Part shown: piece by piece, positions 2,514 to 63,983 of the stretch
Position numbering within the stretch: the first letter of the stretch is position 1
How the letters are laid out: each line of letters opens with the position of its first letter
Origin: Rhizoctonia solani
Lineage: Eukaryota > Basidiomycota > Agaricomycetes > Cantharellales > Ceratobasidiaceae
Direction of reading: 5' to 3'
Length of the DNA: 64,000 nt
Assembly: GCF_016906535.1 (NCBI RefSeq)
Contig: NC_057384.1
Span: forward strand, 744,001 to 808,000
Program-made: the position numbers and the translations under genes
The notes under the pieces: model-generated
What the model was told of the DNA's origin: nothing
Database searches by the model: none
Seen by the model: only the letters and a program-made list of their open reading frames with translations

Positions 2514-2935
2514 TGTTGTAGACACACTTGATACCAGGGAGTTTATTCCCATTTTCTTGATTTTAAACAAAGGCAATTGGACTACTTTTTCAGTCACGTG
2601 ACTTTGGCGCTTATATCATACACTAAGCGCCAAGCCACGTCCCCATCTGTACTTACTCATCATACATAGCCACCTCCACCCAATGACATCATTATGACAT
2701 GTCAGTGACACATATGCATGAGTAAAAACCAACTGCAGAGCAGGGTTCTTATTTGATACAGTATTGCATATAAGTGTATTTGTAATTAGTACTGTCCTGT
2801 AATATATAAGGAGGCCAACCAACCATGGTAACACCCAGGTCAATTACCTCTTGTTGAATCCCCCTAACTGTACAAGGCCTTACAGCCAGAATCACTTAGT
2901 ACCTACAATGCCTTAAGCGTTGACTCCACTGTACA
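2514..2935 (+). repeat. LTR family C, 3'-truncated
   Basis: Starts TGTTGTAGACACAC just after the gag stop, at target GCCAA. It matches the complete C solos at 15535, 19540, 44705 and 45709 until 2935, where the palindromic element begins at a TA dinucleotide. The remaining C sequence is absent beyond the palindrome, so the right part was lost in a rearrangement. Confidence 0.8.
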
Positions 2936-4343
2936 TACACTGGCAATCAATTGCAATGCAACATTGCCTATGAGACCTTTAACCTGTTGATTGCCACTCA
3001 TGTACTTGGCCAATCTCTCTCAAACCTTGCATGAAGTACTGTCACCTTGCACTCCACCTCTGTGCAAAGTTTCATGTCAGTTGAGCTCATGGTTCTGTCT
3101 CTGGATCTCAATAAGTGATTGCAACGTTCTGATTGAAGAAATGCAATATCAAGAAACTTCTCTTCTACTGCCCTGCTACTTCTTTGCAGGTTAAGCCAGT
3201 CATCTGGGGCTGTTCCATGCCCCATTGTGAATGACTAATCAAACTCTCAGCCTGCCAGCTGCCACAGAGTTTGATGAAAGGTGGCTTGTTTCTGGTTGCA
3301 GGCTGTTGGATTTCAATGGACTGATGTGCCACAGTGGAAAGAACTTGGGATGAAGATTGCCAGGGTAGGGTTATTGGGCCCCAGGAAGACAGCTAGTACC
3401 ATTATATTAGCATGGATGAGAGTGTGGAGCTCACACCAGGGGCATCTTGGGTTTGGTCAAAACCTGTACAATTTTGCACAAGACATAGCACCTGCCATTG
3501 TGACAATCAGACTACATGAGTAAGCTATTTGACTTCTCAAGACCCAGATTCACCAGCAGATATGTATTCTAGGTCATTAATCTTCTCCCAACCTGTCCTG
3601 GACACCAGGAAATCTCAAATATCACAAAACCTGACATTTTTCATATGAGATACTACCTTATCTATGTTTCCTGGTGTCCAGGACAGGTTGGGAGAAGATT
3701 AATGACCTAGAATACATATCTGCTGGTGAATCTGGGTCTTGAGAAGTCAAATAGCTTACTCATGTAGTCTGATTGTCACAATGGCAGGTGCTATGTCTTG
3801 TGCAAAATTGTACAGGTTTTGACCAAACCCAAGATGCCCCTGGTGTGAGCTCCACACTCTCATCCATGCTAATATAATGGTACTAGCTGTCTTCCTGGGG
3901 CCCAATAACCCTACCCTGGCAATCTTCATCCCAAGTTCTTTCCACTGTGGCACATCAGTCCATTGAAATCCAACAGCCTGCAACCAGAAACAAGCCACCT
4001 TTCATCAAACTCTGTGGCAGCTGGCAGGCTGAGAGTTTGATTAGTCATTCACAATGGGGCATGGAACAGCCCCAGATGACTGGCTTAACCTGCAAAGAAG
4101 TAGCAGGGCAGTAGAAGAGAAGTTTCTTGATATTGCATTTCTTCAATCAGAACGTTGCAATCACTTATTGAGATCCAGAGACAGAACCATGAGCTCAACT
4201 GACATGAAACTTTGCACAGAGGTGGAGTGCAAGGTGACAGTACTTCATGCAAGGTTTGAGAGAGATTGGCCAAGTACATGAGTGGCAATCAACAGGTTAA
4301 AGGTCTCATAGGCAATGTTGCATTGCAATTGATTGCCAGTGTA
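2936..4343. repeat. 1.4-kb near-perfect palindrome (fold-back element)
   Basis: Arms 2936-3612 and 3667-4343 (677 nt each) are reverse complements around a 54-nt spacer. Open frames at 2991-3194, 2998-3225 and 3281-3523 recur at mirrored coordinates (sum 7279) with identical translations, so I see no indel between arms. Outer ends read TACACTGGCAATC and GATTGCCAGTGTA, that is TA plus a CACTGG-type terminus as in Tc1/mariner elements. The short open frames are unrecognised. Left flank is a C LTR and right flank an E LTR, so it may be a fusion of two inverted copies rather than one simple insertion. Confidence 0.8.
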
Positions 4344-4994
4344 GATACAGGAGTAAGAAAAAATTACTATATACAAAATGTATATGGGAATAACTAAGAA
4401 CTAGTATTAAGAATCAGAATATGTGCACAGAATATATGCACAATATAGGCTAGGCTTATCAGGAATAAACATCTCCTAACAAATACTCTACCAACTATCA
4501 AGTGCAGGTGGTTGGTTATGCATGGTACCTTAGACTAATGTTACTTAAGCCTAAGTGACTAAGGGTATGTATACTTGAGGTCTCTGGGATAGTACCTTAA
4601 GTAAGAGGGTGACCTGACTAATGCACAGGATTTATAGGATTTGCCTATTAAGTATAGGACTTAAAGATGCTTAAGTATGACTTAAGACTTATAGGGTTTA
4701 CCTAAAATGTATCTAGGACTTATGAGATATTGTAGATAAAGCTATTTACAATATGGGAGTATGGTGGATTGAAACACTATCACTCAATCACAACAGTCCT
4801 TACAGTATTGATGCACTATACTCAAGGTTGAACTCAACAACTGTGACAGTCAAGGGGCACAGGGTTGCAGTAAGTACACTAATAGGCTACCCTGTGTCTG
4901 TTGGGACTGGCCTATGGTCTTAGTGTGCCAAATAACCTCCTATGCTACTTACAATGAGTCAATCACTAAAGTAAATGTGCAAATAAGCTGTTAC
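4344..4994 (-). repeat. LTR family E fragment (reverse)
   Basis: Reverse sequence matching the 3' part of the complete E LTR at 38976-40563. It runs from near the 3' end (ACAGGAGTAAG) to about the TTAACAGCTTAT segment. Both ends are cut: by the palindrome on the left and by a forward E copy at 4995 on the right. Confidence 0.75.
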
Positions 4995-33158: not shown

Positions 33159-33625
33159 TGTCATAACCCATATCTGGAGGGGTTATTACCATATATATCC
33201 ACTGTCAAAGATATATATAGTATATATGATGCACAGTGATATATTAATAATATAAGTTGCTGGGGGACGTTGCACTCCCCCCGCCCCCCTAGCCGCAGGC
33301 CAATGTTAAGGGAGCCCGTGGGCAAGGTCTGAATAATATATTATTATAGAAGAGATTATGTCATCCCCCCCCACCTCAAATCCGTAGTAGTTTAGTATAG
33401 TATTTGATAAAGGACTGGAGGGGGGGAGGTCATGTGACCTGGACTTAGAGAATATCACTAAGTCCAGCCATGTCAACCATAAGTCTCTTATATATGGGAA
33501 CCTGGAGGTTCTGAGTGCATATGTGCGAGTATATGCGTGCTTGCAGTCATGTTGGTGTGCAACATGAGTGTGTTGGAGGCTTGACAAGGTCAGGACTCAT
33601 GGACAGAATGGAGTGGGTCATGACA
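33159..33625 (-). repeat. F element LTR (3' LTR by transcription sense)
   Basis: 467 bp, plus-strand reading TGTCATAACCC to GGGTCATGACA, an 11-bp imperfect terminal inverted repeat. On the minus strand it has a TATATAAGAG promoter-like box near 33491-33500. The GC-rich hairpin with AATGTTA in its loop lies at 33293-33321 (two mismatches in the stem of this copy). Confidence 0.85.
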
Positions 33626-33639
33626 TTGCCCCCCCTTTT
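33626..33639 (-). promoter_or_regulatory. Polypurine tract of element F (minus strand)
   Basis: On the minus strand this reads AAAAGGGGGGGCAA directly before the LTR. Its last 12 bases are the same as the tract of element B (22850-22861). It sets the orientation of the element and argues for replication by reverse transcription. Confidence 0.7.
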
Positions 33640-33979
33640 GCACATAGTTTAGGGGACATGAACTTGTGCCATTAGAAAAGATATCTGGATAGATATCTTA
33701 TTAGGTGTCAAGTTCTCCTAAGTACAATTGTGCAATGAGTTGTTCTGAGGTCACCTGACTTGTTCTTGGTCATGTGATCCTTGTTGGAATGTTGTTTTCT
33801 TCCTGTGGGAAAGTTCCCACACTACAGTCTTTGTAAAGCAACTTCTCAAGTCTTCTGGAAGTTCCTGGTTAGCAACATATTTCATGGTTGCTTGGTTACT
33901 GTATGGTGCCATTTTATTGTTCAGAAAGGATTGGTATAGTAAGTCATTTCCCTCTGACTCAGTCTCTTGGCCCCCATGG

Positions 33980-33986
33980 TATAAAG
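33980..33986 (+). promoter_or_regulatory. TATA-like box before the Rep gene
   Basis: TATAAAG 34-40 bp before the ATG at 34021. It is inside the element and separate from the LTR promoter, so the antisense gene may have its own promoter. The stretch 33640-33979 has no coding that I can support. Confidence 0.45.
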
Positions 33987-34020
33987 AAGAGGGCAGTGGC
34001 AGGTGGGATAAGTCATCAAC

Positions 34021-35699
34021 ATGTCTCAATGCCCAACTGCCAGCGCCACTCCCTCCACAGTCTTGGATTCACAGCCTTCAGGGCTGTTGGATGCCACCCC
34101 CTATGTTTCCCAGATTGCATCTACTGTGTGGCAGAGTCAAGAGCTGCCTCTGTCACAGCTCACTCCCAGGACTCTCAAAAGAAGGTTGGATCTGGACTCC
34201 CAAGAAGAAGGAGTAAGTGGTCTTGTTTGCTAGCAAAATCCTTTTACTAAAAGATAACTGTAAAGTCACAGATATCCTGCGTGCTTCCCCCCTTGTCCAG
34301 GCATTGGTTAGCAGTGCCCAGCAACAGGGAAGACTTAGAAAATGGAGGAAGCTCCATTGTCCCATCCATGGCTCCATTGGAGTCAAGGGAATCTATTGTT
34401 CCTGCAGCCCCTGAAGGGCAGGAGGACATTGGGGTTCTTCCCCAAGAAGGAAGGCGCTTCCGTTGTAAGGGGAAGTGTTATCTTCTCACTTATGCTTGTT
34501 ATGTCAAGAGTGAGGAGACAAGGGAAACCTCTTGCCATGAGGTTATAAAAGAGTAAGTAGTTATACCCAGGATGTTTTTACTTTTACTGAAGATTATTCA
34601 AGTCTTGTAGATCATCTTCTTACTCTGAGGAGTGGGGAAAATTCCCTTTTGGAGTATGCCATGGGAGTCACTGAGTCCCATGACCTGAGGGAAGGTGAAT
34701 GGCAGCCTGATTGGCATTGCCATGTTATTGTTTGGGCCAGGACCCTCATCTCATCAGAGGCCCTGAACCTATGGAAGTATAAGGGAGTGCGCCCTCATGA
34801 GCGTCTTCTTGTACTTAGGGATGATAAGGGAAGGTTTGCCCCTTTATCAGCCTATGAGTATCTCAAGAAGGAGGCAGATGCCTGGGAGGCAAGATATGGG
34901 ACCCTTACAGAGGAGTTCTTATTAGGCCAGTGCCCTGCAGGGTTGAAGGCTAAGACCAATGTAAGTCCCTGGTTATGGAAAGAGGTTCTCAGCTGATGGT
35001 TCTCTTATTACAGCGTAATGAAGATTTTGCCTATGCCATGGAGGCAGAGGATGCTGAGGGATTTTTTGGTTGCTTAAAGGAGCGCCAACCTTGTGATATG
35101 GCCATGGGGTATAACAACCTCAAGGCTTTCACTGGTTACTTCTACAGGGACAAGGGTGCCCTTCCTCAGGGTGTATGTGAACCCAAGGCCCTTAAGAAGT
35201 AAGTCCTCTTCTTTTTCATGATAGAAGAGAATGTTGACAAGTTGTTACCAGGGCTACAGTCAACTTGCCACCTGGTGTTCAGGAGTGGGTTACTTCCAAT
35301 ATATTGGAACGTGACCCTGAATCTGATTGTGGTAAGATCCTTGTTTTGTGGGGGCCCTCAGAAACAGGGAAGTCAGCCCTGGCTTGTTCTTGGGGGCACC
35401 ATATTAGGTTCAGGCAGAACCTCAACTCTGATGAGTTTAGTGACCATCCTATGGTTCAGTATGCAGTGCTGGATGATATGGATTGGTCCAAGGTTCCTTT
35501 GAAGATGTGGGTGCAGGAAGACTTCAACTTCTGCACTAGTTACAGATCAGAGCGCCATTGTCAATGGGGGCGTTCTACTGTTATATGTTCCAATTCTAAG
35601 CCTTCTGTATTTGCTGATTGTAGTTATGCCACAGTTGATGGCAAGAATTGGATTGACACCAATTGTACCTTTGTGTATATTGGTGATAAGCTGTATTAG
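34021..35699 (+). CDS. rep: CRESS-DNA-type replication initiator (Rep): HUH endonuclease plus SF3 helicase
   Basis: Rolling-circle initiator. The HUH domain nicks and joins single-stranded DNA, and the helicase unwinds. Five exons fit: 34021-34212, 34272-34552, 34603-34960, 35014-35198, 35252-35699. Introns are 50-59 nt with GTAAGT donors and AG acceptors, phases match, and the sum is 1464 nt (487 residues) with no internal stop. Visible motifs: motif I YLLTYACY (134-141), motif II WHCHVIVW (195-202), motif III YLKK with the nicking Tyr (244-247), Walker A GPSETGKS (373-380), Walker B VLDDMD (411-416), motif C ICSN (Asn 453). The helicase is closest in style to the geminivirus/genomovirus lineage. 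All catalytic motifs are retained, so selection after capture is possible. The first 120 residues are low-complexity and unrecognised. Introns show long residence in a eukaryote. It ends in TAG; AATAAA is at about 35754. Confidence 0.85.
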
Positions 35700-35910
35700 A
35701 TAGTTCCTCTTTGTCTTGTCTTTCCTTGTCTTGTCTGTTCTGGTTCCTGTCTTAATAAAAGCATCCTTTCTCTTCCTCCATTTGGCACTTAGAGATAAAA
35801 TGATTCTTGGAAGATCAGATAAGACACATGGTTACTAAGAAGGATCAAACATTGGAAGAAAAGGAAGAAGAGAAGAATGTAAGGTAACTAATGGAATGTT
35901 ACATATTTCA

Positions 35911-37610
35911 TCACATTCCATCAGCATAATCCAAGGGATTCCATTTGTTCATGGCCTTGTTACTTTCAAGGTCAGGCTCATGTCCACCTTCATCACTTAG
36001 TTCATGGATTGCTAAGTTAGATATACTTCTGCTCAGATCATTCTGAGCTGCTTGCATGGCCCATTGTTTGAGCCAGTCATGTAGATCCTCTATGCTCATT
36101 TCGCGTTCTAGGATCATGTAATAGACATCCTCAGGAGTGAGGTTGTCCACATAGCCACCTAAGCCTGATGGCAGTTTGTTTTTCCAGTTTTCAATTTCTG
36201 CAGCCAGCCATTCCCTTACTGTTGAGATTGGTATCCACCATTCAGGATCAATTTCCTCAATGTCTAGATGCCACTCTGCCAACTTCCTTGTGTGCTTTAG
36301 CACTGGGGCCCTTACTACATCCTCCACAGAGGCACCCACATTACCTCTACACACAAAGAACTTGGTACTTTGCATTAGTTTGGGTTGTTTTGGTGGCTCA
36401 CTGCCAACCCAGCGGAGGTATCCCCTGATTGGACAGCGTAGGGTTCTTCCAATCCAGTAGCATTTCCATTGTTGACCCATTGGTATGTAATCAAGGGTTG
36501 CTGAGGGATCAAGTAGTTTGGCATAAGCCTTGGATTGTTGGAAGGAGTCACATCTTGTGATGACCTTATGCCAGTCATAGATGTTGGTGATAGGGGGTTG
36601 ATCATTCCCCATGTCCCAGCCCATGGATGGATCTGGGGGTGCCCATTGATCCAGGTTGTCCTGGGACCAAGGGAACTCGGTCCTGTGCTCACTGGATCTG
36701 TCAAGGTGGTAAGAGGTGGCATCTCCAGTGGCCTTGGAGATCCTGGTCTCTGTTCTGATGGCAGGCATGATGTCTTAGTAATGGGGATGGATAAGAAAGT
36801 AGTGGTGCCAGTGGTGGTTTGAGATGACTTCCCAGGCATGGGATGCCTTCCTTTATACCCTGGGTTGCCAGGACCCTTATCTTTCCGCTTGTCAGACCCT
36901 TTATTGCCCTTTGCCCTAGGGTCACGTGATTTCCTATGTTCTTCAGTAGAGTAGTTTGTTCTCCCACACACCTCACATTGGATTTCAGTAGACCCTGATT
37001 TATTGGAATTGGATTCACTGTTGTTCTTGGCCTCCCAGAGGGAAGACAAGGGAAGTATTTTATCCAATTGATCAATCACTTCCTGAGAAATACCTTGATC
37101 CAGCATTTCCTGTTCCATCTTTAGATGGTTGTCAATATGTTTCTCCAACCTTTTGACTCCCATTACTAGTTCCATTAAGAATCCATAGACCTTTTGGGTA
37201 CTTGTAAGGTGGTCATTAGTAATCCATTTCCTGTTTGCCTCAGTTTTTTGTGGTTGAGTTTCCTCAGGGAATTTGGCAAAGAAGTCTTCAATAAAATCCT
37301 TCACTGTCTTATTCCTGGTTGCCTCATTTACCAAAGGGGTGTCCTTTTCCCTGGTGGCAGGGTCCTCCAAGGGTGTGTTATTCCCTGGATTCTCATGCCT
37401 AGGGTCTAGGATCCTAGCTGTGGCAAGTTGAAATGATTCCATATCCGGTTGGTCAGCCTGTTTAGAAGGGGTAATTCCTACTCCTTCCTGATGTCCCTGT
37501 TCCATGCCTTGCATAGGAGATGTCAGCTCCATGACATGATCATGTTCAGGGTTATCCAATTGGGGCAAAGTCCCAAATACACGCCTAGGTTGCATCTTAT
37601 GAAATCCCAT
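35911..37610 (-). CDS. Gag-like protein of element F, probably two exons
   Basis: Unrecognised protein on the sense strand of the element, in the place of gag. The ATG at 37610 is the first in a frame open from 37715 down to 36375. A second frame is open from 36768 to the stop at 35911. A phase-compatible intron joins them: acceptor ...CATCAG at 36755 with a TTACTAA branch-like site, donor GTATAAAG at 36858 (104 nt) or GTCATC at 36828 (74 nt). Either gives one uninterrupted protein of about 531-541 residues. Features: a charged, helical middle, a Cys/His cluster CEVCGRTNYSTEEH (about 36977-36936) that could be a divergent zinc knuckle, a basic Lys/Gly tail, then a Trp-rich C-terminal half. 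No RT motif. It could instead be a viral structural protein. Convergent with rep, 211 bp between stops. Confidence 0.5.
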
Positions 37611-37681
37611 ATTGTTGCAAAAGGTCAGATAGAGCACTATAATAGTCTCTATTACTTGCAAGTTCCAAGATATACCTATCT

Positions 37682-37885
37682 TAGTCAGTAAGAAGCCAAA
37701 TAGCGCAACCCACAAAGGAAGTCTTTAGCTATTTGCAAGAAGAAGAAGTCTCAGTTAGTAAGAAGCAAAATAGCGCAACCCACAAAGGAAGTCTTTAGCT
37801 ATTTGCAAGTAGAAGACAAGAAGTCTTAGTTATCAAGAGGCAAAATAGCGCAACCCACAGAGGAAGTCTTTAGCTATTTGCAAGT
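37682..37885. repeat. Three tandem repeats of about 70-75 bp with internal inverted pairs
   Basis: Each unit has CAAATAGCGCAACCCACA (first A changed in units 2 and 3) followed by AGCTATTTGC. The CAAATAGC and GCTATTTG halves can pair around about 22 nt. They lie in the leader just upstream of the Gag-like ATG, so a packaging, promoter or protein-binding role is possible but unproven. Confidence 0.7.
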
Positions 37886-38948
37886 AAAGCAGTGGACACC
37901 TAGGGTCCTAGTGATGAGAAGACTCTGACAGTACTTCTTATCACTAATCAGATAGAAGGATCAGTGGAGATCCTTTGTTGACAGTTGTTGATAGTTGAAT
38001 TTCAAATAAATCATGCAGTTGCTCTTTTTGAGGTGTAGCAACACCTGCTTGTCCCTATAGGTTGTAAGACAAGGGAAAACAAGCTGGCTTTCTAAGCAGC
38101 TTGTTCCACCCCTATACATACCTGGGCATCACTTGGGTCTATATACATATTTCAAATAGGAGCACAGCCTCTTGGAGCCGTAGCACAGCCTCAAGAAGCA
38201 GTATGAGTCAAAGAACCATGTGGCAGTGCTTGATTAGCCAATCAGATGCCAAGAAATACACCAGTGAGGTGAGGTCTTGGCGGAGTTGGTTCTATTTTTA
38301 GCACATGATCACGTGGAACACCGCTTAAGTATGACTCATACTCTTGGCATGCACAGCCACAATATAAGTATGACTCATCCAATTTCCATATATGGTAATC
38401 CTATTCCCCAATCCGGCCCGGTTTTACCCGGAGATCAAGCACAGCCATCATCAAGTGATTGTGGCAGTGCAGGTAGTACTTGATGACTAAGCATTTGTCA
38501 TTATGCTTGGTCATAGTTGATTTGTCATTCATGAGTTGATCATGTGACCTGGTTGCTGACTAAGCATTTGTCATCATGCTTAGTCATACTTGATTTGTTA
38601 TCAATGAGTTGATCATGTGATCTGGTTGCTGACTCATCAGAGTTCAGCTGACTAAGCTTAGTCATCCATCCATTTCATCTTCTTTCCTAATTTGGAAAGG
38701 GGATTGCCATTTTTGGTAAGTCTAGGTTGCTTAGTCTCTATTTGTCTTGAAAGTCTTCTTCAAGTTATGTCTCTTTCCTAATTAGGAAGGTGAGTTACCA
38801 TAAATGGTAATATGAAGTTGTGTTGTTGGGACAATATGTTGTGCATCATTGATGTAGAGGCATTAGTCATCCCTACATCCCCTATAGGCAATACATATAC
38901 ACATATATATGTATATATACTGGGTATAGGTGAGCAGCTTGATTTCAA
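37886..38948 (-). other. Leader of element F, non-coding
   Basis: I find no supported gene here. It holds a tandem duplication of about 78 bp (38483-38636, units containing GACTAAGCATTTGTCAT and GAGTTGATCATGTGA), a short AT-rich run of TATA repeats (38895-38920), and an inverted-repeat-like CCGGTTTTACCCGG near 38419. The bases next to the LTR (TTGAAATCAAGCTGC on the minus strand) match neither a tRNA end that I recognise nor the element's own RNA start. Confidence 0.5.
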
Positions 38949-38975
38949 TGTCATAACCCATATCTGGAGGGGTTA

Positions 38976-40563
38976 TGTTATGGATATGACATTTCTTCTT
39001 TAATCTGTACTTATTTTAATTACACTAGTAATCTCACCGTAAATAAATGAGATAAAGATGCAAACTAAGGTTTTCAAGGTCCCTCTATCCAATAGTGACC
39101 TTTACAAAACCTACAAAGCTCAGGAATGCCCTTAATATGCGATGCCTTTTGCATATATGCTGTTTTCTCACTCATTTAAATATATATAAATTCAGCTGAG
39201 TAGATAAACAGTGACAAGTAATATTTCTCTTGTTTGTAGTATTTATTACTCAAGATTCTATCTTGTGGCTACACACAGAAATATTCAGGGTCCCCCCTGT
39301 CGCATAGGCAAGTGCTCCGGCGCTTAATCAGCCCTTAAGCGCCGACGCACTAAATGCGCCTTTTCTCCATCACCCGGGCATCCCACACTGCCGAATCGCT
39401 TGCGCTTAGGTGCGCATGTTTGTGCGCTCCAGAACGCTGGGTCAAACTCCCAAAACGGACAACATTTGGCTGAGTTATGCCCCATTTACTGTAAGTACCC
39501 AATGCAGAGGTATCCTACCTTTGGGATTGTTTACTCCAAGGATGAAACACTTAGTCTTGGGACATCTAAGGACCCACACAGGTAAATAATGCCTTGGGGC
39601 AAACATTGCCTTGGGGCAAACATTGCCTTGGGGCAAACATTGCCTTGGGGCAAACATTGCCTTGGGGCAAACATTGCCTTGGGGCAAATATTAGGATCTG
39701 TTGTTTGTTTACTATGTACCAAAGTATTGGCTCCCTCAAGTGTTTCAGTTGCCACCTGTACCTCCTGTACCCCCTCTTGGTATCAATCATGTATATACTT
39801 GTTTGTGCGCCTTCTCAGGGTATAAAAGGACCCTGTGAAGACGCTTCTAATGCATCCATTTATCCACTCTTATATATTGACATATACACACAAGCCTTTA
39901 ACAGCTTATCTGCGCATTTACTTTAGTGATTGACTCACTGTAAATAGCATAGGAGGTTATTCGGCGCACTAAGACCATAGGCCAGTCCCAACAGACACAG
40001 GGTAACCTATTAGTGTAATTACTGCAACCCTGTGCCCCTTGACTGTCACAGTTGTTGAGTTCAACATTGAGTATAGTGCAACGATACTGTAAGGATTGTT
40101 GTGATTGAGTGATAGTGTTTCAATCCACCATAACCCCTATATTGTAGATAGCTTTATCTACAATATCTCATAAATCCTAGATATATTTTAGGTAAACCCC
40201 ATAAGTCTTAAGTCTTACTTAAGCATATATAAGTCCTATACTTATTAGGCAAATCCTATAAATCCTGTACATTAGTCAGGTAACCCTCTTACTTAAGGTA
40301 CTATCCTAGAGACCTTAAGTATACATACCCTTAGTCACTTAGGCTTAAGTAACATTAGTCTAAGGTACTATACATAACCAACCACCTGCACTTCATAGTT
40401 GCTAGACTATTTGTTAGGAGTTGTTATTCCTGATAACCTAGCCTATATTGTGCATATATTCTGTGCATATATTCTGATTCTTAATACTAGTTCTTAGTTA
40501 TTCTCATATACCTTTTGTATATAGTAATTCTTTCTTACTCCTGTACTTACACGACTCTTAACA
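38976..40563 (+). repeat. Solo LTR, family E (complete, 1588 bp)
   Basis: TGTTATGGATATGAC to CGACTCTTAACA, perfect TSD GGTTA (38971-38975 and 40564-40568). It has CTCAGGGTATAAAAGG near 39816-39831 as a promoter box. This is the reference copy for the four other E copies in the window. No coding; open frames across the minisatellite are repeat artefacts. Confidence 0.93.
39591..39690 (+). repeat. 17-bp minisatellite, six units
   Basis: Unit GCCTTGGGGCAAACATT repeated six times in tandem inside the E LTR. Other E copies have two units (about 5610) or one (about 15205), so the number changes between copies. Confidence 0.85.
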
Positions 40564-41106
40564 GGTTATTACCATATATATCCACTGTCAAAGATATATA
40601 TAGTATATATGATGCACAGTGATATATTAATAATATAAGTTGCTGGGGGACGTTGCACTCCCCCCACCCCCCTAGCCGCAGGCCAATGTTAAGGGAGCCC
40701 GCAGGCAAGGTCTGAATAATATATTATTATAGAAGAGATTATGTCATCCCCCCCCACCTCAAATCCGTAGTAGTTTAGTATAGTATTTGATAAAGGACTG
40801 GGGGGGGGAGGTCATGTGACCTGGACTTAGAGAATATCACTAAGTCCAGCCATGTCGACCATAAGTCTCTTATATATGGGAACCTGGAGGTTCTGAGTGC
40901 ATATGTGCGAGTATATGCGTGCTTGCGGTCATGTTGGTGTGCAACATGAGTGTGTTGGAGGCTTGACAAGGTCAGGACTCATGGACAGAATGGAGTGGGT
41001 CATGACAGGGTGGCTAGGAAAGGCTCTAGGGCAACCCTGAACCTCTTGAGTAAGTCAGTAGGTAGAGTTTAAGCCTGTTAAATCAGCATATACACTTTAA
41101 TTCAGC

Positions 41107-57038: not shown

Positions 57039-57483
57039 TGTTATAGAGTAGGGTTTTAGAGACTATGTAATTAAGTGCAGAATACAATAAAGTGATTAAT
57101 GGATCAATTATATATGGATATAAAAGGCAATAGACTAGCTATGTAAGGGTAAATTAGGTTAGTAATCAGGGTGATCCCTACACTTAACAAGTAATCAAGC
57201 AATTACTGTAGATGCAGGTGGTTGGTTATGCTTATACCTATAGTATGAAAGTTAGTACTGAGTCTTATTTACTTGCTGTAATTTATCTAGAGTTATATCA
57301 ATTTATTTGAAAGAGATTGCACTTAATTAAAGTGTATATGCTGCTCTCAAGGCCTTAAACTCTCCCAACTGACTTACTCAAGAGGTTCAGGGTTGACCTA
57401 GGGCCTTTGCTAGCTACCCAGTATCTGTTGGAACCTTGCTAAAGGCTATATGCGCCAAGAAACCTTACAGGTTAAGTTCAGTG

Positions 57484-58016
57484 TGTCATGACCCAAGAGG
57501 CATGAACACAGATACCCTAATATTCTATTATCTTTTTATCTAAATTTTACGAATTATATGGACCAGGGGATGTTCCCAACATGACCACAGGCCATGAAGG
57601 ACTCCCCTGGCAGAGCAATCAACATGGAATGTGAATGGTCCCTTTGTTTAGCCTGTTAGCTTTGTCCTCTGGTTACTTAGTTACCATATGTCCTTAGTTG
57701 CATTGTTCTATTGTTCTCTTAGTTACCCATACCTTTGTAGTATGTCTTCCATTGTTCTCCTTTGTACTTTACAGTTCCCTTGTTCTGTATGATGTATATA
57801 ATGAAGGGAGAGTTCTGGCATTCAGACCAGAACTTGACCTCCTGTCAATCTACTGACTACCCTCCCCACTCTCCTGCTCTACTCTAAGGGGTCTTGTGCC
57901 ATATTTGGCAAGTAAACTCTCTCTCTAAAGTGTTGGTTGCAGTCTTCTGCTTATCCCCAAAGCCAGCACTGCCTCTTTAGGCATCTATCCCATTCTTCAT
58001 TAGTCAGACTCTGACA
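57484..58016 (+). repeat. 5' LTR of element J
   Basis: TGTCATGACCC to AGACTCTGACA. TATATAATG at about 57796 serves as promoter box; AGAACTTGACC at 57830-57840 just downstream is the predicted RNA 5' region used for priming. Confidence 0.92.
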
Positions 58017-58019
58017 TTA

Positions 58020-58030
58020 GGTCAAGTTCT
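58020..58030 (+). promoter_or_regulatory. Self-priming primer-binding site of J
   Basis: GGTCAAGTTCT, three bases after the 5' LTR, is perfectly complementary over 11 nt to AGAACTTGACC at 57830-57840. No tRNA 3' end match is needed. The leader continues to 58583 without a gene. Confidence 0.75.
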
Positions 58031-58583
58031 TGGCTCTGTGCAGTGCTCTTGTTAGTGCTAGCATATAATACTCTACTGGGTGACGCATTTGCCCCAGTAT
58101 TGCTTAACTAGGACTATTGGTGGGCCAGCTTAGTGGGCACTATAGTCTTAGGGGATTGAGACCATCTGTGGTACCAGTACCTGGGGAATAGCTGAAGGTC
58201 ATAGGGGTGTAATAATCAAAGACCCTGAGGGACTAAGCAGTACCTGGATTACTATAGGGCTATAGACTAGGAATCACCAACCTGACAGGTGGATACATTC
58301 ACCTACTGCCTTGCAAACTTAGTCAGCAAAACACCCGCTTGCAGAACACCCACTTCTATATCACGCTTGTCCATAGCTGTTGATTAGTTGCAGGGGCTGT
58401 CCAAGGCTAGGTGTGGAGCAAAGTTTTAGCGCCTGGAGCAGGAATTTTTTAGTATAGTTTTTTGAACATTTTTAGGATAGTTTTTAGTAGTATAGCACTT
58501 TCAGTAGTATAGAACTCCTGTAACCTTTCTACTCTTTTCTACCTTTTATATTTCTTCTTCTTCTTTATTTCTCCACTTTCATC

Positions 58584-59897
58584 ATGAGCAGCCAAAATCT
58601 CTTTGTTACTGTGGATCCTGATTCTGTTTCCATTGCACCTTCATTACCTGCAGAGGTGTCTCAGACCCTCACAGCCTTGAAAACCTTAATCATGGCTGTT
58701 AATCATAATTTGCAGGTAGCAATTGGTCAGATCCATAATAACACTGCTGATCTTGCTACTGCCAACAACTCTCTTCAAAACCATGATGGTGGCATCACCC
58801 AGATGGAAGGGCAAGTCAAAGCCCTGGAGAATATTATCTCTGCTCTGGCTGGTGCCCCTCAAGGTTCTGGTTCAGGCTCAGGCTCTGGGTCCAGGAGGCC
58901 CAAGCTTAACCTACCAGAGAAGTTTGATGGTAGTAACAAAGACAAAGCAGTTTCATTTAGGGTGGCTGTCTCTCACTATCTGAGGGTTTCATATCCCCAA
59001 GCCTCAGTTGAGGAACAGATAGCTTTTATTATCTCTTGCCTGGAGGGTAAAGCTCATGAGTGGCTTGAACCCTACTTAGAAGAGGATGTTGTCAATAATC
59101 ACCCAGTGGCTTGGCTCCACAGTATCAATGGGTTCTGGTTGCAGTTCAATGCAAGGTGGAATGTCCAGAACAAGACTGAGAACTATAGGGCTAAATTCAA
59201 GACCCTAAAGCAAACCAAGTCTGTTCAAGATTACTACAAGGACTTCCAAACCTACTCCCAGAACCTAGGGTATAATGACATATCCCTAAGGGACTTTTTC
59301 TATGATGGCCTGTCTCTCAAAATCAAGGAGATGCTTATGGCTCAGGACTATGACCATAATGCCAGCAATGTTTCCTTAGAGAACCTTGCTGATAAAGCTC
59401 TGAAGATTGACCAGCGCCTAGAACAGTTCCAGGCACAACACAAGGGCCAGACCAACTCCTCTGGTTCCAAAAGTGGCACTACATTGTCAACAGGAGCCTT
59501 GGGCAATGTGACCAGGGATAAACTCACTGTTGGGGATAAAGTGTACATGATTGGACCAGATGGAAAAGCAAGGAAAGGCACCATTTCAAAAATTGGCAAA
59601 AATGCAAAGGGCATGTCTATTCCTACTGTGAAGTGGAATGATGGCACTGTGGTTGAGAGTAGCTTCAAAAGTCTCAAAAAGGACTCACATCCTGTAGACC
59701 CCTCTCCAGTCCAGCCAAAATCTTCCAACTCTGGACCAAGCCCTATGGATCTTGACTCTGCAGGAAAGGGCAAAAAACCTATTGTATGCTCTACCTGTGG
59801 AGGAAAGGGACACTATGCTAGCCAATGTCCTTCTAATACATACTCTGGCTATGAAGCCCATCTATCTGAGAATGAGTTGGAAAATGGGGACCTCTGA
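58584..59897 (+). CDS. gag: Gag of Gypsy element J
   Basis: 437 residues from the ATG at 58584, ending TGA at 59895-59897. Forms the virus-like particle and binds element RNA. Residues about 1-100 are helical with a Ser/Gly linker (GSGSGSGS, about 93-100). The Gag core is about 105-285 (FDGSNKDKA, then EWLEPYL). A small VGDKVYMI segment (about 313-365) looks like an SH3/Tudor-type barrel and is shared with element A. A CCHC zinc knuckle CSTCGGKGHYASQC lies at about 402-415. No stop or frameshift. Pol begins two bases after the stop in another frame, so Pol must be made by re-initiation or frameshifting. Confidence 0.92.
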   Translation: MSSQNLFVTVDPDSVSIAPSLPAEVSQTLTALKTLIMAVNHNLQVAIGQIHNNTADLATANNSLQNHDGGITQMEGQVKALENIISALAGAPQGSGSGSGSGSRRPKLNLPEKFDGSNKDKAVSFRVAVSHYLRVSYPQASVEEQIAFIISCLEGKAHEWLEPYLEEDVVNNHPVAWLHSINGFWLQFNARWNVQNKTENYRAKFKTLKQTKSVQDYYKDFQTYSQNLGYNDISLRDFFYDGLSLKIKEMLMAQDYDHNASNVSLENLADKALKIDQRLEQFQAQHKGQTNSSGSKSGTTLSTGALGNVTRDKLTVGDKVYMIGPDGKARKGTISKIGKNAKGMSIPTVKWNDGTVVESSFKSLKKDSHPVDPSPVQPKSSNSGPSPMDLDSAGKGKKPIVCSTCGGKGHYASQCPSNTYSGYEAHLSENELENGDL

Positions 59898-59899
59898 AC

Positions 59900-62800
59900 A
59901 TGAAAAGGCACCATGTCTCAGAGGGAATTAAAAACTTGGACAATTTAGAGATCTTTTCTGTAAATAACATCTCTCCACTCAATATTTACTACTCTGCATT
60001 TCCAAGTATTAGTGCCCCCAACAAGAAAAGCACCACCCAGATGAAACCATTCTATGGGTGGGCTATGATTGACTCAGGAGCTTCATCCTGTTTCATCCAT
60101 AAAAATCTTATTGACCAATATCATATACCCTTGGTCAGGAAGTCAATTCCTAGGTCATTAAAGGTCATTGATGGTCGTGATATCAGCTCTGGTTTGGTTG
60201 AGTTTGAATGTACTTTTGAATTTTTTATAGGTAGCCATAAAGAGGTTTTGAAATGTAATGTAGCAGACATAGGTAGACACTCAATTGTTTTAGGAATGTC
60301 TTGGCTCAAGTTACACAACCCAACTATAGAATGGACTACCAAGCGTGTAATGTTTAACTCTGTATACTGTAGTACAACTTGTTTTTCTTCTTCTTCTCAT
60401 ATTATCCTGGGAAACACTGGTGGGACTGCCAACCACCTTGAAAGTGTACCAGAAGACCTAGGAGGTGCTGAGGCTCCTTATGAGGCTCTTGAAAGTATCC
60501 CTAGGGATCCTGGAGGTGCTGTGGATTATTCACTTGAAGGCATCCCAGAGGAACTCTGTGACTATGCAGAGGTATCTTCTGAGGACAAGGTGACAGAGTT
60601 GCCTCCTCATTGCTCCTATGACTTGGAGATAGTCCTCCAAGATCAAACCAAACAGGTTAAAGGACCTGTCTATCCCCTTAGACCTTCTGATGATGAGGAA
60701 CTCAAGAGGATCTTAAAGGAACAGCTGGACCAAGGCCTTATCAGGCCCTCAAAATCCCATTACAGCTCTCCTGTGATCTTTGTTCCCAAAAAGAATGGCA
60801 AAAGGAGGATGTGCATTGACTACCGTGCACTGAATGCCAACACAGTCAAGAACTCTTACCCCCTTCCTTTGATTTCCAATCTCATTGAGAAGTTAAGGGG
60901 TGCAAAGTGCTTTACTGCTCTAGACCTTAAATCTGGATATAACCTTGTCAGAATTAAGGAAGGAGATGAATGGAAAACAGCATTCAAGACTAAATATGGC
61001 CTTTTTGAATACCTGGTTATGCCCTTTGGGCTGTGCAATGCCCCAGCTACCTTCCAGCACTTCATGAATGATATCCTGAGGGACATCTTAGATGTCTATG
61101 TGATAGTGTACTTGGATGATATCCTTATTTTCTCCAAATCCAGAGAAGAACATGTTACCCATGTCAGGGAAGTTCTCAAAAGGCTACAGAAGCACAAGTT
61201 GTACTGTCAGCTTGAGAAATGCAGGTTCTTCCAGGATCAAGTACACTACTTGGGAATCATAGCCAATGGGGAAGGGGTATGTGCAGACCCTGAAAAAATC
61301 TCCAAAGCTGTTGATTGGGCAACACCCCAGACAGTTAAAGGGGTTCAAGAGTTCTTAGGTTTTGTCAACTTCTACAGGCGGTTCATTATGAACTTCTCCA
61401 AGCTTGCATATCCACTCTATCAACTGTTGCGCAAGGAGAACCCTTGGAAGTGGGGTGCTGAACAGCAGGAGTCTTTTGACAACCTAAAAAGAGCTCTGAT
61501 TGAATCCCCTGTCCTCATTCAGCCTGATGTTTCAAAAGAGTTCTTCCTTGAGTGTGATGCATCAGATTATGCAACTGGTGCAATCCTTAGCCAAAAAGGT
61601 GGAGATGACAAACTCCATCCTGTGGCCTTCCTTTCAAAGAGCCTATCACCTGCAGAATGCAACTATGACATCTATGACAAAGAGTTGCTTGCAGTGATTA
61701 GAGCATTGAAGGAATGGAGACACCTTTTGGAAGGCTCTGAAATCCCTGTCAAAGTCCTCACAGATCACAAAAACCTGGAATATTTCCAAACAAAGAGGGA
61801 ACTTAACAGGCGTCAGGCTAGATGGATGGGATTTTTGGCAGACTATAACTACAGAATTGTTTACAGGCCTGGCTCCCAAAACAAAAAAGCTGATATCCTT
61901 TCCAGGAGAGAAGACCTGAAAGGGGAGGCTAAAGGGGGGGGTGAAGCCCCTGCACTTATTGCACCAGAGCTTTTTATCTCTTCAATTCTCACAGACAGTG
62001 ACCTCAATGATCTTATCAGAGATGCACTGCCTGATGACAAAACTGTTGCCAAAATCCTGAAGTCCTTGGAGGAAAACATTCCTGTTAAAGGCTGGTCTCT
62101 GGATAATGGGTTGCTCTACTACCACCAGTGCATTTATGTACCCAATGAGCCAGAAATCAGGCGCCTTGTTCTTGAAAGCAGGCATGATAATCCTTCCACA
62201 GGCCATCCAGGACAGTGGAGAACCATGGAGTTGCTGTCTCGCCATTATTATTGGTCTGGGATGAAGCAATCTGTGGCCAAATACATTCAGGCATGTGATT
62301 CATGCATCAGAAGTAAACATTCCAACCAGGCCAAGATGGGGTTACTCCAACCTATTGATCTACCCAGAAAGCCTTGGGAGGAAATTACATATGACCTGAT
62401 TGTTGGCCTTCCTATTTCAGAGGGATATGATGCAATACTCACAGTGGTGGATAGACTATCCAAGATGGTCCATTTCATTCCTACCACCTCTAAAGCCACT
62501 GCTGTTGATGTTGCAAATCTCTTTGTGAACTTCATATGGAAACTCCATGGGCTGCCCAGAAAAACCATCTCAGATTGTGGGCCTCAATTCAATGCCAAAT
62601 TCCTGCGCCAAGTATACAAGCGTTTGGGGATAGAACCACACTTCTCAACAGCCTACAGACCCCAAGTGGATGGGCAAAGTGAGAGGTTAAACCAGTTTGT
62701 TGAAATCTTCCTAAGGCACTATCTTAGCCATAGGCAAGATGACTGGGTTGCTCTCCTTCCCTTGGCAGAATTTGCATATAACAATGGGGTTCATGCTGGG

Positions 62801-63439
62801 TCCAAACACTCTCCTTTTTACCTCTGTTATGGGTACAATCCAGATTTCACTGTTGGGGATATTACTGTTACCCAAGTCCCTCAAGCAGATGAACTGGCTG
62901 AGTTCTTGAAGAGAAACCTGGAGGAAGCCAAAGCTGCATTAACCATGGCCCAGAATAAGCAAGCCTTCTACTACAATAATAAGCACAAGGCAGCAATCAA
63001 GCTTGAACCTGGTGATAGGGTCTTCTTAGACAGCAGCAATATCAAAACTTCAAGGCCTTCCCACAAACTTGAACACAAGAGGTTGGGACCATACAAAGTC
63101 TTGGAGAAGATTGGCAAAGAGAGCTACAAATTGGAACTTCCAAAATCTATGAAGATCCATCCAGTATTCCACATAGCTCTACTCCACAAGGAACCCTTTG
63201 ATGAATTCCAGTGCAAACCCAAACCTTTGCCTCCTGTAATTACCCAAACAGGAGAAGAAGAATATGTGGTGGAGAAGATTTTGGATTCCAGGAAGCAAGG
63301 AAGGAACCTGTGGTACTATGTCAAGTGGAAAGGGTATGGACCAGAAGAGAACACCTGGGAACCCAAAAGTCACTTGGCCAATGCACCAAAACAGGTTGCC
63401 AAATTCCACCAGCTCCACCCAGATGCACCTGGGCCTTGA
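59900..63439 (+). CDS. pol: Pol of Gypsy element J (PR-RT-RH-IN-chromodomain)
   Basis: 1179 residues from the ATG at 59900. Aspartic protease MIDSGASSC (about 56-64), RT with VYLDDILIF (YLDD at 404-407), RNase H (ECDASDYATG, about 550-560). The integrase zinc finger H...H...C..C is at about 760-803, and the integrase core Asp at about 832 (TYDLIVG). A second Asp is in SDCGPQF (about 893; Cys stands where Arg is usual), and Glu is in DGQSERL (about 930). The C-terminal chromodomain EEEYVVEKILDSR to NTWEP lies at about 1117-1155. It copies element RNA into DNA and inserts it; the chromodomain may direct it to heterochromatin. The stop at 63437-63439 is followed by the polypurine tract. All catalytic residues that I can check are present. 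Confidence 0.95.
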   Translation: MKRHHVSEGIKNLDNLEIFSVNNISPLNIYYSAFPSISAPNKKSTTQMKPFYGWAMIDSGASSCFIHKNLIDQYHIPLVRKSIPRSLKVIDGRDISSGLVEFECTFEFFIGSHKEVLKCNVADIGRHSIVLGMSWLKLHNPTIEWTTKRVMFNSVYCSTTCFSSSSHIILGNTGGTANHLESVPEDLGGAEAPYEALESIPRDPGGAVDYSLEGIPEELCDYAEVSSEDKVTELPPHCSYDLEIVLQDQTKQVKGPVYPLRPSDDEELKRILKEQLDQGLIRPSKSHYSSPVIFVPKKNGKRRMCIDYRALNANTVKNSYPLPLISNLIEKLRGAKCFTALDLKSGYNLVRIKEGDEWKTAFKTKYGLFEYLVMPFGLCNAPATFQHFMNDILRDILDVYVIVYLDDILIFSKSREEHVTHVREVLKRLQKHKLYCQLEKCRFFQDQVHYLGIIANGEGVCADPEKISKAVDWATPQTVKGVQEFLGFVNFYRRFIMNFSKLAYPLYQLLRKENPWKWGAEQQESFDNLKRALIESPVLIQPDVSKEFFLECDASDYATGAILSQKGGDDKLHPVAFLSKSLSPAECNYDIYDKELLAVIRALKEWRHLLEGSEIPVKVLTDHKNLEYFQTKRELNRRQARWMGFLADYNYRIVYRPGSQNKKADILSRREDLKGEAKGGGEAPALIAPELFISSILTDSDLNDLIRDALPDDKTVAKILKSLEENIPVKGWSLDNGLLYYHQCIYVPNEPEIRRLVLESRHDNPSTGHPGQWRTMELLSRHYYWSGMKQSVAKYIQACDSCIRSKHSNQAKMGLLQPIDLPRKPWEEITYDLIVGLPISEGYDAILTVVDRLSKMVHFIPTTSKATAVDVANLFVNFIWKLHGLPRKTISDCGPQFNAKFLRQVYKRLGIEPHFSTAYRPQVDGQSERLNQFVEIFLRHYLSHRQDDWVALLPLAEFAYNNGVHAGSKHSPFYLCYGYNPDFTVGDITVTQVPQADELAEFLKRNLEEAKAALTMAQNKQAFYYNNKHKAAIKLEPGDRVFLDSSNIKTSRPSHKLEHKRLGPYKVLEKIGKESYKLELPKSMKIHPVFHIALLHKEPFDEFQCKPKPLPPVITQTGEEEYVVEKILDSRKQGRNLWYYVKWKGYGPEENTWEPKSHLANAPKQVAKFHQLHPDAPGP

Positions 63440-63450
63440 AGGGGGGGAAG
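63439..63450 (+). promoter_or_regulatory. Polypurine tract of element J
   Basis: AGGGGGGGAAG (with GA before it) just before the 3' LTR, overlapping the end of pol. Primer for plus-strand DNA synthesis. Confidence 0.75.
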
Positions 63451-63983
63451 TGTCATGACCCAAGAGGCATGAACACAGATACCCTAATATTCTATTATCT
63501 TTTTATCTAAATTTTACGAATTATATGGACCAGGGGATGTTCCCAACATGACCACAGGCCATGAAGGACTCCCCTGGCAGAGCAATCAACATGGAATGTG
63601 AATGGTCCCTTTGTTTAGCCTGTTAGCTTTGTCCTCTGGTTACTTAGTTACCATATGTCCTTAGTTGCATTGTTCTATTGTTCTCTTAGTTACCCATACC
63701 TTTGTAGTATGTCTTCCATTGTTCTCCTTTGTACTTTACAGTTCCCTTGTTCTGTATGATGTATATAATGAAGGGAGAGTTCTGGCATTCAGACCAGAAC
63801 TTGACCTCCTGTCAATCTACTGACTACCCTCCCCACTCTCCTGCTCTACTCTAAGGGGTCTTGTGCCATATTTGGCAAGTAAACTCTCTCTCTAAAGTGT
63901 TGGTTGCAGTCTTCTGCTTATCCCCAAAGCCAGCACTGCCTCTTTAGGCATCTATCCCATTCTTCATTAGTCAGACTCTGACA
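63451..63983 (+). repeat. 3' LTR of element J
   Basis: 533 bp, the same as 57484-58016 as far as I can read, followed by AGTG and I LTR sequence. Confidence 0.92.

Follow-up and report, generated by a model that had tools for sequence, protein, structure and literature searches.

The window analysed here is a stretch of 64,000 nucleotides of DNA from the plant pathogen Rhizoctonia solani, a fungus (contig NC_057384.1, positions 744,001 to 808,000 of the forward strand), and at its positions 33159-41007 lies an insertion, the long terminal repeat (LTR) element F, with an LTR at each end (Table 1). F contains two overlapping sense open reading frames, ORF1 and ORF2, and, antisense to the element, a five-exon gene (rep) for a replication protein (Rep) of the type found in circular Rep-encoding single-stranded (CRESS) DNA viruses. 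The sense strand of F is the minus strand; the polypurine tract (PPT) lies next to the left LTR, and the leader next to the right one. An earlier note on this DNA had proposed a single insertion bounded by two F LTRs with flanks GGGTA and GGGTG, and this was borne out: the LTRs are 98-99% identical in two matched blocks, their ends are TG..CA, and the flanks match at four of five bases. It had also placed an uninterrupted LTR of type I outside F, which proved wrong, as this is a solo I LTR nested within the right F LTR, which it splits, with an exact GGTTA target-site duplication (TSD). Without this nested LTR, F measures 6256 bp, similar to seven compact copies found elsewhere in the genome.

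The rep gene is open over all five exons (1464 nt, 487 amino acids). Its splice sites were placed by us, their support being the conservation of GT..AG across copies, which holds for introns 2-4 in 16 of 16 copies and for intron 1 in 15 of 16. In the database proteins P0025, P0027 and P0028 the acceptor of exon 2 is at 34266, a shift of 6 nt that adds two residues; otherwise the join of exons 1 and 2 agrees with the database proteins. Seventeen of the 22 rep loci of the genome could be aligned, L009, L015, L016, L028 and L029 being excluded for truncation or long insertions. Among these 17 copies, the HUH nickase motifs YLLTY and WHCHV are present in all, and the third motif reads YLKK in 13, YLKT in two and is deleted in two. 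The exact superfamily 3 (SF3) helicase motifs GPSETGKS, VLDDMD and ICSN are found in 15, 17 and 16 copies, respectively, and the relaxed forms (GxxxxGKS, VLDDMD, and ICSN or LCSN) in 17 of 17. In a further alignment, WHCH stands in 20 of the 21 rows having a letter at the site. The exon mapping and the motif counts thus confirm what the earlier note had read here, an antisense five-exon Rep with HUH and SF3 motifs, all open.

Affiliation of the protein was sought by profile and by structure. In Pfam scans of the Rep exons and their relatives, PF08283 passed its gathering score only in the relative P0007 (E 1.2e-5); it was listed below that score for exon 5 of the window copy and for P0004, P0008, P0021 and P0032, and PF00799 was not listed. 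A fold model of the relative P0022 (mean predicted local distance difference test score, pLDDT, 54) gave 23 matches at E <= 0.001 in a viral structure library (best 6.4e-6, template modelling (TM) score about 0.2). The first were genomovirus and geminivirus Reps, and the named matches were all CRESS Reps. A search of the PDB with the same model gave none at E <= 0.001, the best Rep having E 0.25. Upstream of rep, at 33805-33820, the palindrome GTGGGAAAGTTCCCAC is invariant in 16 aligned copies and is a candidate Rep-binding or nick site.

The genome searched was an R. solani assembly of 40.7 Mb in 16 contigs. Exon 5 of rep has 23 matches there at 22 loci; 18 of these matches have a frame that stays open for 147 or more of the 153 residues, with an identity of 93-100%. 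Among the 21 rep loci other than that of the window are the seven compact LTR-to-LTR copies (6044-6270 bp), each with rep and ORF1/2. Four of the seven have exact 5-bp TSDs, one has a TSD with one mismatch and two have none; of about 465 sites compared between the two LTRs, 2-5 differ (0.4-1.1%) in six of the copies and 33 (7%) in the oldest. The tip of the F LTR occurs 58 times, as counted with a pattern tolerating up to three mismatches, which leaves more diverged F LTRs uncounted: 28 tips form 14 pairs, two lie 851 bp apart, and 28 are single or inverted. The pairs are neighbouring tips on the same strand, 5-25 kb apart, and rep is inside 14 of 14. Since the searches with the LTR, the leader and L031 Gag (see below) scored only part of their candidates (40 of 279, 40 of 48 and 66 of 648, respectively), the genome copy numbers are lower bounds.

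The idea that a virus gene landed once, by chance, in a single LTR element is therefore refuted by the 22 rep loci and the 14 of 14 LTR pairs, together with the mosaics and the selection described below; nothing was found in its favour. The earlier note had allowed for complete F elements with pol and without rep, the present copy being a chance nesting. Other F copies do carry rep, and each of the 14 F-LTR pairs counted above encloses it.

Two further arrangements were seen among the rep loci. L012 and L025 (C12:237903-251043) are F copies placed head to head, so that leader and ORF1/2 are mirrored in one large palindrome. At L015:2480-3128 and L028:2480-3128, a broken rep (exons 4-5) abuts the antisense pol of a different gypsy element, with a nested I element on the other side. 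These were considered as a second LTR family with antisense rep and rejected, as the flanking LTR is that of the nested I element common to both loci; the two loci are 98.5% identical over 5.2 kb and therefore represent one duplicated event.

A search with the F leader gave at least 42 genome matches to part of it, several of them where the F genes are absent. Among these is L031, a chromodomain Ty3/gypsy element with a 675-residue Gag (PF03732, PF19259) and a Pol with protease, reverse transcriptase (RT), RNase H, integrase and chromodomain. Its LTRs are two mutually identical 460-bp repeats within an exact AGAAG duplication, and it is a young autonomous element. F and L031 are 94% identical over 412 of 467 bp of the LTR, 96% over 1113 nt of leader and 86% over 37 nt of the PPT region, and the sequence beside the LTR, the putative primer-binding site (PBS), is the same in L031. 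Between these common ends no DNA match was found. The L031 Gag and Pol proteins gave none in the window copy of F either (best E 1.1, against ORF1/2), although the same queries do match other gypsies elsewhere in the window, and at E 0.001 they found nothing in any of the seven compact copies. The absence of pol, claimed in the earlier note, therefore holds for the window copy and for the compact copies. Because the ends are common to F and L031 and the interior is unmatched, F is a non-autonomous Ty3/gypsy relative (similar to a large retrotransposon derivative, LARD), lacking RT and integrase, sharing its cis sequences with L031 and having a cassette in place of gag-pol. Close relatives of L031 Gag were found at nine or more loci including L031, 92-100% identical over their main pieces, and most of the others have stops; L031 is the likely driver of F. 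Self-primed reverse transcription by pairing of the LTR with the PBS was rejected, as the LTR has no complement of the PBS of 7 nt or longer.

Table 1. Features of element F in the window.
Feature	Position	Strand	Evidence
F 3' LTR	33159..33625	-	98-99% identity to right LTR; TG..CA ends; at least 42 genome matches
PPT and adjacent 37 nt common to L031	33626..33662	-	86% over 37 nt; similarity ends there
4.18-kb cassette (antisense rep and ORF1/ORF2) in place of L031 gag-pol	33663..37839	.	No L031 DNA match; L031 gag/pol proteins best E 1.1
TATAAAG box, 41 nt 5' of rep ATG	33980..33986	+	16 of 17 copies with rep start found
rep exon 1, N-terminal extension	34021..34212	+	Also in database proteins P0025, P0027, P0048
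rep exon 2, HUH motif I YLLTY (34479-34493)	34272..34552 (start may be 34266)	+	Motif in 17 of 17 copies
rep exon 3, HUH motif II WHCHV (34712-34726), motif III YLKK (34859-34870)	34603..34960	+	dN/dS 0.12
rep exon 4, geminivirus-Rep central region	35014..35198	+	dN/dS 0.06; PF08283 in relative P0007
rep exon 5, SF3 helicase: Walker A GPSETGKS, Walker B VLDDMD, motif C ICSN	35252..35699	+	23 genome matches; dN/dS 0.10
AATAAA polyadenylation-like signal 3' of rep	35754..35759	+	Checked in window copy
ORF2, 285 aa, sense to LTR	35911..36768	-	pN/pS 0.15 outside overlap; lies within R. solani proteins P0009, P0017, P0018, P0020
ORF1 ("Gag-like"), 411 aa, about 0.4 kb overlap with ORF2	36375..37610	-	pN/pS 0.32 outside overlap
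5' leader (putative primer-binding, presumed packaging region)	37840..38948	-	96% to L031 over 1113 nt
5' LTR, first piece	38949..38975	-	Separated from second piece by I LTR
Nested solo I LTR, foreign to F	38976..40563	.	TSD GGTTA
5' LTR, second piece	40564..41007	-	98-99% to left LTR

Some further observations concern the leader and the surroundings. Tandem repeats of about 70-75 nt lie at 37673-37886 and 38480-38625, and the leaders of F copies vary in length by about one repeat unit. Four candidate elements of about 2 kb (C4:647207-649415, C5:1883761-1885954, C9:2092433-2094627 and C10:1794216-1796425) resemble F in the LTR tip/PPT and in 117 nt of leader but nowhere else, and are perhaps a further non-autonomous family. 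At 57483-63749 of the window, identical 300-nt repeats stand at both ends of a segment with pol similarity to L031 over 60062-63436, possibly a young complete gypsy. The window segments 2929-3612 and 3667-4350, of 684 bp each, are a perfect inverted repeat around a spacer of 54 nt.

The sense gene had been called Gag-like in the earlier note. What was found are two overlapping ORFs without detectable Gag similarity (blastp E >= 2 and hhalign probability 0.1% against L031 Gag), and it is L031 that has a genuine and different Gag; ORF1/2 as the Gag of the parental element was accordingly rejected. ORF1/2 as a capsid was rejected as well: no capsid or PHROG match was obtained, and the structure model of ORF2 was unusable (pLDDT 37.5). 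A Pfam scan of both gave no match near the cut-off. The 12 ORF1 homologues found are all R. solani records, and many relatives show a CX2CX4HX4H pattern, which is not strict, the first histidine being absent in the window copy and in P0019. Ratios of nonsynonymous to synonymous polymorphism (pN/pS) were calculated on 14 of 15 aligned copies. They are low outside the overlap (Table 1) and about 0.6 in either frame within it. The two ORFs, being constrained, probably encode something.

The cassette as a whole could have come from one ambisense circular DNA replicon that replaced gag-pol. The rep gene and ORF1/ORF2 converge tail to tail with a 211-nt spacer, a layout typical of geminivirus-like genomes, the cassette is devoid of any L031 sequence, and relatives of Rep and ORF1 lie near each other in other strains, as judged by locus tags (RHS01_04186 and RHS01_04183). 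Against it, of the CRESS-DNA features looked for in F, neither an origin stem-loop with a nonanucleotide, nor a relative among the viral contigs scanned, nor a capsid, PHROG or Pfam match for ORF1/2 was found. We consider this origin possible but doubtful; it is compatible with the explanation that we favour, a captured Rep maintained by a non-autonomous element.

Selection on rep was measured as the ratio of nonsynonymous to synonymous substitution rates (dN/dS) between pairs of 16 copies, L012 being excluded as the twin arm of L025. In its own frame, the core formed by exons 3-5 gave a combined dN/dS of 0.10 (single exons in Table 1), against 0.91-2.37 in the other frames. The contrast was weaker for exon 1 (0.28, against 0.51 and 1.40) and exon 2 (0.47, against 0.54 and 0.66). 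Intron divergence is 7-26%, and 14-26% for introns 2-4. Variable sites in exons 3-5 number 54, 34 and 127 at codon positions 1, 2 and 3 (chi-square p 3e-15, sites treated as independent). We also chose eight copies and compared them in two classes, A (window, L020, L022, L023) and B (L018, L019, L021, L025): pN/pS is 0.09 between the classes, 0.15 within class B (at a pS of 0.08) and 0.93 within the young class A, whose pairs have on average only 1.5 synonymous differences. Ratios of this kind are expected if the lineage that spreads depends on Rep and single insertions are left to drift. If F is mobilised in trans, a freely shared product would not protect the copy that encodes it, and for this reason a cis-acting benefit of Rep may be argued; this is an argument, not a demonstration.

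Several observations weigh against the explanation that we favour. Class A, the youngest, looks neutral. Rep is fully open in eight of the 17 alignable copies, two of which are twin arms of one palindrome with motif III as YLKT, and nine carry lesions; two LTR-paired copies have lost motif III. Selection was mostly measured between divergent alleles, which may have split before entering the present F lineage. No canonical nonanucleotide origin was found within the listed hairpins of the window copy; the sole match to a geminivirus-type nonanucleotide, at 33339, is AT-rich, lies in the LTR and was rejected. The P0022 model is of low confidence and its TM-scores are low. Broken pieces of ORF1 without a rep match lie at C15:891374-893193, C9:1552884-1553457 and C2:2602153-2604546, and may be remnants of old F copies or belong to a related family; two F-type LTR-plus-leader pieces also lack rep, at C16:3604355, near a contig end, and C3:185184. 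Finally, movement of F in trans by L031-type proteins is proposed from shared sequence. In the dN/dS comparison suggested in the earlier note, rep is constrained overall, with motifs mostly kept, but not within class A, and about half of the copies are damaged. Neutral evolution with broken motifs, which that note had set against its own reading, is not what was generally found.

Rather than being needed by F, rep could have arrived with the cassette as a passenger, its selection signature dating from an earlier life as a free CRESS replicon or in another element, and be neutral cargo now. The class A ratio and the nine damaged copies are what this would predict, as is the fact that rep alleles are far more divergent than the F backbones. 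Class B, however, still shows 0.15 at a pS of 0.08, and of the six compact copies whose LTRs differ little, five have an open rep. In addition, Ceratobasidium sp. 423 has an annotated protein, P0048, that shares the first exon, relatives occur in several R. solani groups, and the ORF1 relative P0019 and the Rep relative P0049 are on 7603-bp contigs, which were taken as one contig. We regard the passenger explanation as unlikely, and retain that of a maintained Rep.

The divergence of rep alleles is uneven along the element. Among ten copies, distances reach 18% in exons 2-5 and the spacer, at most 4% in ORF2 and 1-6% in the LTRs, and for one pair of copies the distance changes at the passage from exon 3 to exon 4, from about 3% to about 10%. 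Elements that are nearly identical carry reshuffled rep alleles. Such mosaics would be produced by template switching when RNAs are packaged together; gene conversion is a possible alternative source. In a tree of exon 3, the alleles of this genome are interspersed with the R. solani records RHS01 and RhiTH. A Rep profile search gave 59 proteins, all those named being from R. solani (including AG-1 IB, AG-3 and AG-8) or Ceratobasidium sp. 423, and one is annotated "Geminivirus Rep catalytic domain". Compared with the window copy, exon 3 identity is as low as 63-70% (strain 123E, AG-8, Ceratobasidium), and the Ceratobasidium protein P0048 has a recognisable exon 1; the gene is therefore old in this fungal group. 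No Rep relative was found among the IMG/VR viral contigs scanned, from which near-own records may have been left out.

A gene with its own TATA box and retained splice sites might also be kept by the fungus itself, for instance as a regulator or as a defence against circular DNA mycoviruses, F being only the carrier. A geminivirus-related circular DNA mycovirus is known in another fungus (PMC6950361). Yet rep stands at 22 scattered loci, many with lesions, and not at one kept locus; most copies keep the catalytic residues, which a decoy would not need; and the viral contigs scanned hold no relative. We judge such a host-level role improbable, even more so than the passenger explanation, and keep to a Rep that serves the element.

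F can be compared with several known systems. Helitrons combine an HUH nickase with an SF1 helicase in one protein, and have neither TSD nor LTR. Like them, F is a mobile element with an HUH nickase plus a helicase; its SF3-type motifs, LTR ends and TSD-making insertions rule out a Helitron identity. The F Rep resembles those of Genomoviridae and Geminiviridae by its HUH and SF3 motifs, by PF08283 in a relative and by the rank of these Reps in the viral structure library. It differs from them by its five exons, its long N-terminal extension and its chromosomal location in an LTR element, and no viral contig in our scans held a relative.

Antisense genes have been described in plant LTR retrotransposons (Grande, RIRE2 and Retand; PMC7264820, PMC11963269). 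As in F, the extra gene is antisense and near the 3' LTR, that of Grande has its own promoter, and some Retand elements are non-autonomous; unlike that of F, these ORFs are described as having no similarity to viruses or other transposable elements (PMC7264820) or as encoding a TRP28 domain (PMC11963269), whereas F has a recognisable CRESS-type Rep and no gag-pol. What such antisense genes do has long been a puzzle (PMC7264820). In Tuber melanosporum, a geminivirus-like Rep was amplified in the genome as part of a transposon with 37-bp terminal inverted repeats and transposase ORFs, which shows no clear TSD and whose Rep is interrupted (PMC3198968). F, unlike it, is bounded by LTRs, several of its copies have exact 5-bp TSDs, and its rep genes contain introns and encode open Reps. 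Bdelloid rotifer LTR retrotransposons have taken up foreign genes as well, in that case env, DEDDy exonuclease and GDSL esterase ORFs, and the words "geminivirus", "ssDNA" and "rolling-circle" are absent from that text (PMC5408684). In the titles and abstract openings listed by searches of the open literature, subscription papers being mostly uncovered, no CRESS Rep inside an LTR retrotransposon was reported.

Taken together, these results support the capture of a geminivirus/genomovirus-type Rep by a non-autonomous retroelement, as the earlier note had proposed from one copy, and to that reading they add the autonomous relative, the genome-wide linkage of rep, the selection pattern and the mosaics; F is multi-copy and its rep is constrained. 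In the explanation that we favour, F would be a non-autonomous Ty3/gypsy element related to the young L031, retaining LTR, PPT and 5' leader, in which gag-pol would have been replaced by the sense ORF1/ORF2 and an antisense CRESS-type Rep with its own TATA box and four introns. Gag, RT and integrase would be supplied in trans by the L031 family, as the shared cis sequences suggest. The introns would survive since the RNA that is packaged is antisense to them; the earlier note had reasoned likewise, and the presence of all four in the 16 copies compared fits. Motifs and the long-term dN/dS of about 0.1 predict that Rep is maintained as an active HUH nickase and SF3 helicase. More tentatively, the likeliest role of Rep, though at less than even odds, would be to act in cis on extrachromosomal or freshly integrated F DNA, by nicking and rejoining or by rolling-circle amplification, and so raise the success of F; the earlier note had suggested that it may help to copy extrachromosomal element DNA. 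The explanation as a whole appears to us probable, though well short of certain.

A bolder version, which we hold to be somewhat less likely than the replicon origin of the cassette, would make F an element with two engines, moving between sites by borrowed RT and integrase, its cDNA or circles being multiplied in between by Rep through rolling-circle replication. If true, F would combine retroelement and circular DNA virus in one natural hybrid, with a Rep kept for working in cis. Because the enzymology is recognisable (nicking-joining and helicase), the motifs are retained, several alleles are at hand and the autonomous relative is identified, the role of Rep is directly testable. F ties retroelements to the genes with which single-stranded DNA viruses replicate, and points to a way in which a viral Rep may persist in fungal genomes.

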